Shown: positions 27,800-29,009 of the stretch, one piece after another
Numbering within the stretch: position 1 is the first letter of the stretch
Layout of the letters: each line of letters opens with the position of its first letter
From: Viridothelium virens
Taxonomy: Eukaryota; Ascomycota; Dothideomycetes; Trypetheliales; Trypetheliaceae
Length of the DNA stretch: 64,000 nt
Assembly (NCBI GenBank): GCA_010094025.1
Contig: ML991844.1
Span: 80,310-144,309 of the forward strand
Direction of reading: 5' to 3'
Notes under the pieces: generated by a model
The model's database searches: none
Told to the model about the DNA's origin: nothing
Seen by the model: only the letters and a program-made list of their open reading frames with translations
Translations under genes and position numbers: made by a program

Positions 27800-28845
27800 A
27801 CTAAATTATTTTCCAACTGGTGTTTATTGCTTTGTCACAAGCACTCTGCCTCACTTTTTATGATGAAACCAGATGAATGAACAACTTTCCCAAGACAGTG
27901 ACAGAATGAGTGCTGTGTGAGAAGGCGATTCTTTGAGAAGGGGTACTTTTGTATTTGCGTCTTATGCGAAGATAGCCGAGAGTACTGCTTTTATACTAAT
28001 TGTGCAATGCCATTAAGAGAGCGCGTTCTGTCATGGCCATGTGGTGACCAACATGATTTTTCTCGATTGAAGATCGACCAGGCTGCGGAAGCAACGCATA
28101 GAGACCACCAATCGTCTATCAGAACGATAAACCAATGATCTTACTTCCTCATCGTATTCAAATGGAGTGCGGGATGAGGTAACGGACCACTGACACAGAG
28201 CTCAGTTAGATGATGCATAATTGCGGCAACCCGACGGCATGCCGGGCATGGGTTGAATGGTCGACCTCGGATCTATTCATTGTTCAGTATGGAAGTTAGC
28301 TGTCTGGTTCATATACTGGCTGGTCATAATATCTCTTGCTCCTTTTCAGAGAAAGACGAAAGTAGAAGCTACGAAATAAACAAGGGTCCTGGGGTTACTA
28401 TCTTGGTGGTCTTTCTCGGCACGTCTGGCACTGTCCGTTCTCAAAAGTCCTGGAGAAAGATAGGATAAAAGATAAGAAGATGTGAAAGGATATAGACTAA
28501 AATTTTTGGCACATCCTAAATATTGTGGGACATGGGAGTAGCGCCACCTATATACAGAGCTGCGCAGAGGTCCATGCGCATAGCCTGGTGACACATTACA
28601 TGACCTTTCATCTCATCTCCAAGCACAGAGATCAGAAGCACAGCTGCATAGAATAATGGATGAGAATAGAAAGCTGTAGATATGCATAAATTCAATCGCA
28701 AAATCATAAAAAATAATTCTCATGAAAAGGACTTTTTGGTAAAAAAAAAAAGAGACGAAAGCTAGATAGAAGAGATGAAAAGTGAAAATATTAAAATTAT
28801 CAATTATTTATATAATTTTACATGCTCTGAAGCCCAGAATGCGGC
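27800..28845. other. intergenic region upstream of the tRNA gene
   Basis: About 1 kb with no supported gene. It becomes AT-rich from 28650 and includes a poly-A run of about 12 near 28741-28752, just before the tRNA gene. Confidence 0.4.
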
Positions 28846-28990
28846 GGCATTGTGGCCGAGCGGTTATGGCGCAGGTTTCAGGATTATCCGTGTTTACCTG
28901 TGGGAAACTTCGTGGGTTCGAGTAAGTTGTATGAGTGAATTGTTTTGTTTACATCCGTAATAATTGTGGACGCAGATCCCACCAATGTCA
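28846..28990 (+). tRNA. tRNA-Leu (anticodon CAG) with an anticodon-loop intron and an extra 54-nt insertion in the T-loop
   Basis: The acceptor stem GGCATTG (28846-28852) pairs with CAATGTC (28983-28989), followed by discriminator A28990. Box A TGGCCGAGCGG runs from 28853, with a 3-bp GCC/GGC D-stem. The anticodon stem CAGGT (28872-28876) pairs with ACCTG (28896-28900). The loop TTCAGG...T has anticodon CAG at 28879-28881 and a 12-nt insertion at 28883-28894, the canonical 37/38 intron position. A short variable arm fits a class II tRNA. The T-stem GTGGG (28912-28916) and loop TTCGA are interrupted at 28922-28975 by a 54-nt segment starting GTAAGT and ending GCAG. Its removal gives a perfect GTGGG-TTCGAAT-CCCAC arm. 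A T9 run at 29001-29009 is a Pol III terminator. It may be a functional doubly interrupted tRNA or a disrupted gene. Confidence 0.75.
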
Positions 28991-29000
28991 ATTGCTCTTC

Positions 29001-29009
29001 TTTTTTTTT
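29001..29009 (+). terminator. Pol III terminator T-run
   Basis: Nine consecutive Ts lie 11 nt past the tRNA discriminator base, the normal position and form for RNA polymerase III termination. Confidence 0.7.

Follow-up and report, generated by a model that had tools for sequence, protein, structure and literature searches.

GT-AG inserts in tRNA genes are a genome-wide feature of Viridothelium virens, a finding that goes beyond the single gene to which the original prediction was confined. That gene, a tRNA-Leu(CAG) gene, lies in a window of 64 kb, i.e., the whole stretch of DNA analysed, which was taken from contig C74 (genome of 30.7 Mb, 175 contigs), and its T loop is interrupted by 54 nt. 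We consider it very likely that this insert is a short U2-type GT-AG spliceosomal intron in a working nuclear tRNA gene, one of a set found across the genome. As such, making tRNA in this fungus probably depends on the mRNA splicing machinery, a conclusion drawn from the sequences of 37 nuclear tRNA genes and their inserts.

The tRNA-Leu(CAG) gene and its two inserts

The gene occupies 28846..28990 of the forward strand from acceptor stem to discriminator base (scripted coordinates), and all features described here lie on that strand. Exon 1 (28846..28882; sequence and ARAGORN) comprises tRNA positions 1-37 with an intact A box, and is followed by a canonical 37/38 intron of 12 nt (28883..28894) in which GT-AG ends are absent in all seven registers. 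Exon 2 (28895..28921) holds positions 38-58 and its 3' end, GGTTCGA, is the first part of the B box. The 54-nt insert in the T loop, at 58/59 (28922..28975; ARAGORN and structure-only excision), begins with GTAAGT (28922..28927), which is the consensus 5' splice site, and ends with the 3' splice site GCAG (28972..28975); exon 3 (28976..28990) supplies positions 59-73. A TATATAA word lies 37 nt 5' of the gene (28809..28815), and a run of nine T (29001..29009) downstream is the putative Pol III terminator. The original prediction had given the gene and both inserts, and these were borne out to the base by sequence and script, as were (by script) the T run 3' of the gene and the splitting of box B by a GTAAGT...GCAG piece adjoining exon 2.

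It had also held that the parts pair as a tRNA-Leu(CAG) only with 28922-28975 removed, and this proved correct. ARAGORN called no tRNA in the unspliced 64-kb window, and Rfam at gathering scores gave no match in it. Once 28922-28975 is removed ARAGORN returns Leu(cag) with a 12-nt anticodon-loop intron, and the restored molecule has the cloverleaf, the long variable arm and the anticodon of a tRNA-Leu. When 3056 excisions from the gene (at least 40 nt, leaving 68-115 nt) were scored on stems and conserved bases only, three tied at the top, each reaching the maximum of 27 points. They differ from one another by one-base slides, and one is the exact GTAAGT...GCAG excision. At 58/59 the insert lies outside the 37/38 position that defines a canonical nuclear tRNA intron.

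Two features of the insert count against reading it as a spliceosomal intron of a working gene. The word CTRAY is absent from it in perfect form, and the candidate branch points, read by eye and without statistics, are GTAAT (28957..28961, with its A at 28960), one mismatch from CTAAT, or alternatively TTTAC (28948-28952, with its A at 28951). Furthermore, the insert breaks the gene's own B box after GGTTCGA, where its first bases lengthen the B-box word to GGTTCGAGTAA.

When the window was scanned on both strands for tRNA genes with a GT-AG insert in the T loop, this gene alone was found. The coding genes tested in the window include those for a zinc alcohol dehydrogenase, an ABC transporter, a tyrosinase, a carboxylesterase, a GH76 protein and a fungal rhodopsin domain; together with the GT-AG introns, this content is consistent with a filamentous ascomycete. 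Between 48000 and 64000 the G+C content falls to 0.29-0.40, in an AT-rich block at the end of contig C74.

GT-AG inserts across the nuclear tRNA genes

We resolved 37 nuclear tRNA genes in the genome, 23 of which carry a total of 26 GT-AG inserts, and 14 none, Cys(GCA) and Gly(CCC) being among the latter. This count is non-exhaustive (Phe, Tyr, elongator Met and other isoacceptors were not found); it includes locus L023, whose identity is uncertain, and a second Lys(CTT) copy that may be dead, and it leaves out loci L120 and L236. The first of these two (G000:C71:136900-137460) is a tRNA-like stretch with a weak T arm and a long middle part, and the second (G000:C70:149650-150030) has a Leu-like A box followed by GTGAGT and later by GGTTCGAGTC.

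The survey was selected without regard to splice sites. The B-box word GGTTCRANYCC occurs at 160 places, 155 of them nuclear and five on contig C129, a tRNA-dense contig of 34.6 kb that is taken to be the mitochondrial genome and has 16 tRNA matches of 69-73 nt, all free of inserts. Each of the 155 nuclear words was examined for a T arm, an acceptor partner, an A box and a T run, and later any fully paired T arm was included. A fully paired T arm together with a T run was found at 31 words, and 30 of them could be assigned to tRNA genes, of which 17 carry GT-AG inserts and 13 have nothing or an anticodon-loop intron only. Large inserts without GT-AG ends were absent from these 30 genes outside the anticodon loop. 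Further genes were added from low-scoring Rfam places and from a Leu-type A-box pattern (21 places, all examined). The Rfam tRNA search of the genome gave at least 40 matches, with 63 of 927 candidates scored, and several of the nuclear matches were long-spanned. One Lys(CTT) gene, whose A box is split, was missed by the first gene scan and recovered through the Rfam list and a wider scan. The wider scan found nine more fully paired T arms outside assigned genes, eight of them without a T run; the ninth, at locus L134, is followed by a T run but lacks a full acceptor partner. Upstream of the tRNA-His gene, and adjoining it, is a fully paired, T-arm-like word without a T run (L011, G000:C32:239745), which is perhaps a tRNA remnant.

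Insert positions, set by hand from the spliced sequences, are spread over much of the molecule. The acceptor stem is interrupted in Arg(TCG) at 5/6. In the D arm, inserts lie at 12/13 in both Lys(CTT) genes, 14/15 in Gln(TTG), 15/16 in Ala(CGC), 17/18 in Arg(CCT), Pro(CGG) and Asn(GTT), 18/19 in Arg(TCT), Ala(AGC), Ser(GCT) and Leu(TAA), 23/24 in Leu(CAA) and in locus L030 (Trp(CCA) by ARAGORN), and 24/25 in two Asp(GTC) genes, while Thr(CGT) and the initiator Met gene are interrupted just after this arm at 26/27. Anticodon-arm inserts are found in Asn(GTT) at 31/32, Arg(ACG) at 32/33, Ser(CGA) at 33/34 and Arg(TCT) at 34/35, and the variable arm is interrupted in Ser(AGA). The T loop is interrupted at 55/56 in Leu(AAG), 58/59 in Leu(CAG) and 59/60 in Arg(TCG). 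Three genes, Arg(TCT), Asn(GTT) and Arg(TCG), each combine two GT-AG inserts with a 37/38 intron, and four Leu genes (CAG, AAG, CAA and TAA) carry inserts.

All 26 inserts outside 37/38 start with GT and end with AG. Most also have G at +5 (24/26) and a pyrimidine at -3 (23/26), and 19 contain CTRAY, 6-45 nt from the 3' end, compared with a mean of 4.7 and a maximum of 11 in 1000 shuffles. Their lengths range from 46 to 99 nt, with 21 of the 26 within 46-54 nt. The anticodon-loop introns served as a control: they occur in 25 of 36 ARAGORN-called genes, form a separate length class of 7-35 nt, and none of the 25 has GT-AG ends in any of seven registers, although ARAGORN misplaces a few of them. 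With 54 nt in the Leu(CAG) gene, the inserts resemble in length the mRNA introns of this genome (54-77 nt), a yardstick of just four introns in the window whose bounds were set by eye, using the reading frame and known protein motifs. Those four have ends similar to those of the inserts and start with GTACGT, GTCAGT, GTGGGT and GTAAGT. Their branch words are TTGAC, TTGAC, TTAAC and CTGAT, so that CTRAY is present in only one of the four; this, like the small number of introns, counts against the spliceosomal reading. A group I or group II origin was rejected on the length of the inserts and on the lack of any Rfam match in the window; such introns contain a ribozyme core and normally run to hundreds of nucleotides.

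Runs of T within the inserts are weakly depleted: runs of four or more T number five compared with 9.3 expected (0.044 of shuffles were as low), those of five or more number one compared with 3.3 (0.14 of shuffles as low), and those of six or more number one compared with 1.1. The intron of L030 holds a T6 run, which could act as a Pol III stop; it is awkward for Pol III transcription and counts against the spliceosomal reading.

Since the GT-AG bounds were first seen by eye, we also tested the boundaries by structure alone, removing the other GT-AG insert before scoring in the three genes that have two. In the 20 inserts with at most 61 tied best excisions, a limit chosen after the results were seen, the named GT-AG excision fell within the tied set every time, and the 403 tied excisions over these 20 included 21 with GT-AG ends compared with about 1.6 by chance (403/256, assuming equal bases). 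Broader tied sets (228 to 1342) kept Ser(CGA), Ser(AGA) and the second inserts of Arg(TCT) and Asn(GTT) out of the 20, and these four also include the named GT-AG excision among their best. L030 is a one-point miss, its GT-AG excision scoring 26 against a best of 27, which counts against the reading, and the second Lys(CTT) copy was unscorable.

After excision ARAGORN called a tRNA in 22 of the 23 genes (17/17, then 5/6). Its label differs from the assigned identity in three of the spliced genes, the second Asp copy, Ser(GCT) and Leu(AAG), because, in our reading, the 37/38 intron confuses the program. Left unspliced, with the intron limit set at 80 nt, 12 of 17 genes were called and ten of these were misidentified; identity was kept only in Arg(ACG) and Ser(AGA). 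In unspliced Arg(ACG) ARAGORN itself takes out a 47-nt intron, about the place and length of the GT-AG insert.

Origin of the inserts and state of the interrupted genes

The original prediction offered three readings of the T-loop insert: a second tRNA intron removed by the spliceosome, one removed by the tRNA endonuclease, or an insertion that inactivated the gene. The first is well supported, given that 23 of the 37 resolved genes have like inserts, at many different positions, which share splice-site words and, in most cases, branch-point words; the other two are disfavoured.

If the tRNA splicing endonuclease cuts these inserts, as it does in Archaea and Cyanidioschyzon, then their GT-AG ends would be incidental. 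Introns in the D arm, anticodon arm and T arm, several per gene, are indeed described for Archaea, a red alga and nucleomorphs in a review (PMC4090602). Cutting by the endonuclease would leave the GT-AG ends of 26 of 26 inserts, and the branch-point words, unexplained, and the 4-bp central helix of a bulge-helix-bulge motif, between 3-nt bulges at the junctions, is found in none of the 26 (one of four pairs in the Leu(CAG) insert). The number of central-helix pairs averages 1.73 in the inserts compared with 1.54 in shuffles. This structural test counts only weakly against the endonuclease, because the 37/38 introns of the same genome mostly fail it too: with hand-set junctions, one of eight has the helix, and the test does not discriminate. 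On balance we regard cutting by the endonuclease as improbable.

The number of genes affected, and the position of seven of the 26 inserts (assigned by hand) beside G18/G19 of the D loop, could suggest copies of one mobile, intron-like element (an introner) that spread recently into tRNA genes. However, when the 26 inserts were compared pairwise only the Asp pair beat shuffles; the next best score was 13, against maxima of 12-14 in five shuffled sets. A search for copies of the Leu(CAG) insert, as the original prediction advised, returned a single BLAST match genome-wide for gene plus insert. An introner family was rejected, as sequence similarity above the shuffle level is limited to the Asp pair, and this is the least credible of the explanations that we weighed.

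A recent insertion that turned the tRNA-Leu(CAG) gene into a pseudogene would fit its split B box (after GGTTCGA) and its imperfect best branch-point candidate, and another intron-bearing gene does appear damaged. This is the second Lys(CTT) copy (L122, G000:C63:130400-130960), which has four bases missing around the T loop and, after excision, is not called by ARAGORN; given the shortened T loop and the missing call it may be a pseudogene or a copy being lost. The two Lys(CTT) genes share the insert site 12/13, CTAAC and AG, at an intron identity of 33/53. The two Asp(GTC) genes, both interrupted at 24/25, have an intron identity of 38/51 and a mature identity of 71/82, with compensatory changes in the acceptor stem, and their diverged inserts retain the 5' site, CTAAT and AG.

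Another tRNA-Leu(CAG) gene that could supply the isoacceptor was sought, also on the advice of the original prediction, by BLAST, pattern search, the B-box survey and the Leu A-box survey, and a second one was not found. We judge BLAST insensitive to short matches because Leu(CAA) went unreported by it; the D-arm word of the Leu(CAG) gene occurs once in the genome. A pattern search for further genes split in the T loop gave 53 places, the Leu(CAG) gene among them as the positive control; 40 of the 52 others were examined and none was a tRNA by the scan, which is blind to the T-loop introns of Arg(TCG) and Leu(AAG) because it depends on both the acceptor stem and the word GGTTCRA being uninterrupted. 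Excision lets every stem of the Leu(CAG) gene pair, and the gene is followed by a T run. Like inserts are present in the initiator Met gene, in Leu(AAG), Leu(CAA) and Leu(TAA), and in the two Asp(GTC) genes that were found. With its stems intact, with no second Leu(CAG) gene turned up by these searches, and with like interruptions in the initiator gene and in the duplicated Asp and Lys genes, inactivation appears a poor candidate, with little chance of being correct.

A proposed spliceosomal step in tRNA maturation

If the inserts are spliceosomal introns, then a tRNA gene would be transcribed by Pol III with the assistance of the upstream TATA box and with termination at the T run. The nuclear spliceosome would then take out the GT-AG intron first, the ends would be trimmed, and the tRNA endonuclease and ligase would come last, removing the separate 37/38 intron. 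The spliceosome is placed first since a GT-AG intron still in place would keep the interrupted part (T arm, anticodon arm or acceptor stem) from folding. Introns in the acceptor stem, T loop and anticodon loop would have to go before end trimming and before the endonuclease could read the fold. The word TATA[AT] occurs at -50..-16, mostly near -37, in 24 of 35 tRNA genes compared with 22 of 175 background windows, and it is found in 15 of 21 genes with GT-AG inserts and nine of 14 without (Leu(AAG) and Leu(TAA) are omitted, as their upstream DNA is too short). In vitro, yeast tRNA genes with a TATA box can do without TFIIIC for transcription (PMC3978253), and an upstream TATA may explain the tolerance of split A and B boxes.

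Textbook tRNA splicing is protein-only, and spliceosomes are said to act on transcripts made by Pol II, the known exceptions being rRNA and U6. The U6 snRNA of fission yeast has an mRNA-type intron that is spliced from a Pol III transcript, and an origin by reverse splicing was suggested for it (PMC10484740, citing Tani and Ohshima 1989, 1991). It is thus alike in polymerase and intron type, but it concerns one gene near the splicing centre, compared with 23 tRNA genes in V. virens. The three U6 copies found in the V. virens genome lack an intron, which counts against a spliceosomal reading. In one of these intron-free copies (L221, G000:C116:32817-32916) the T run is followed further downstream by a B-box-like GGTTCGATCC, an arrangement also seen in yeast SNR6.

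Spliceosomal introns of lichen-forming ascomycetes are removed from nuclear rDNA transcripts in the fungus, and one of them was correctly removed when placed in yeast rDNA (PMC8527467, citing Bhattacharya et al. 2000). These introns likewise sit in a structured non-coding RNA made by another polymerase, but there it is Pol I rRNA genes with few introns, whereas in V. virens it is Pol III tRNA genes, 23 of the 37 resolved. A 17-base SSU pattern gave no match in the V. virens genome. Fungal U3 snoRNA genes have canonical spliceosomal introns (PMC5832005), again in a small structured RNA; however, this is one RNA whose intron is almost always in the first stem-loop, compared with many tRNAs and many positions here.

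Other tRNA introns differ more. The canonical nuclear 37/38 intron is also present in the Leu(CAG) gene, and the GT-AG inserts depart from it in position, length and ends. We know of no GT-AG ends with a branch point as a feature of archaeal, Cyanidioschyzon merolae or nucleomorph tRNA introns. These are similar in their D-, anticodon- and T-arm positions, with up to three introns per gene, but in Archaea and C. merolae they depend on the endonuclease and bulge-helix-bulge motifs, and those of nucleomorphs are 3-24 nt with a splicing route called not known in the review (PMC4090602 and PMC3978253). Among eukaryotes, PMC4090602 assigns non-canonical tRNA introns to nucleomorphs and the red alga, and supposes other D- or T-arm inserts to be pseudogenes. 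In tRNAscan-SE 2.0, archaeal-mode candidates are analysed for non-canonical introns (PMC8450103). Spliceosomal introns in tRNA genes went unreported among the matches listed in openly licensed PubMed Central papers at title and abstract level. The inserts would be a known kind of intron in a gene class for which we found no report of it in that literature.

Gene finders can miss or misname intron-bearing tRNA genes, as with ARAGORN, which called none in the window and gave ten of 17 a wrong identity. It seems likely that most nuclear tRNA genes of V. virens, the initiator included, are unable to yield tRNA without the spliceosome, that two unrelated splicing machines act in a fixed order (the spliceosome in the nucleus, then the tRNA endonuclease), and that the introns were gained singly; they may have been reverse-spliced into folded tRNA, the route proposed for the intron of U6. 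If this is true, short Pol III transcripts that are uncapped and tightly folded would be routine substrates of the spliceosome, many intron gains would be available at base resolution for tests of reverse splicing, and translation in this fungus would be tied to its splicing capacity.
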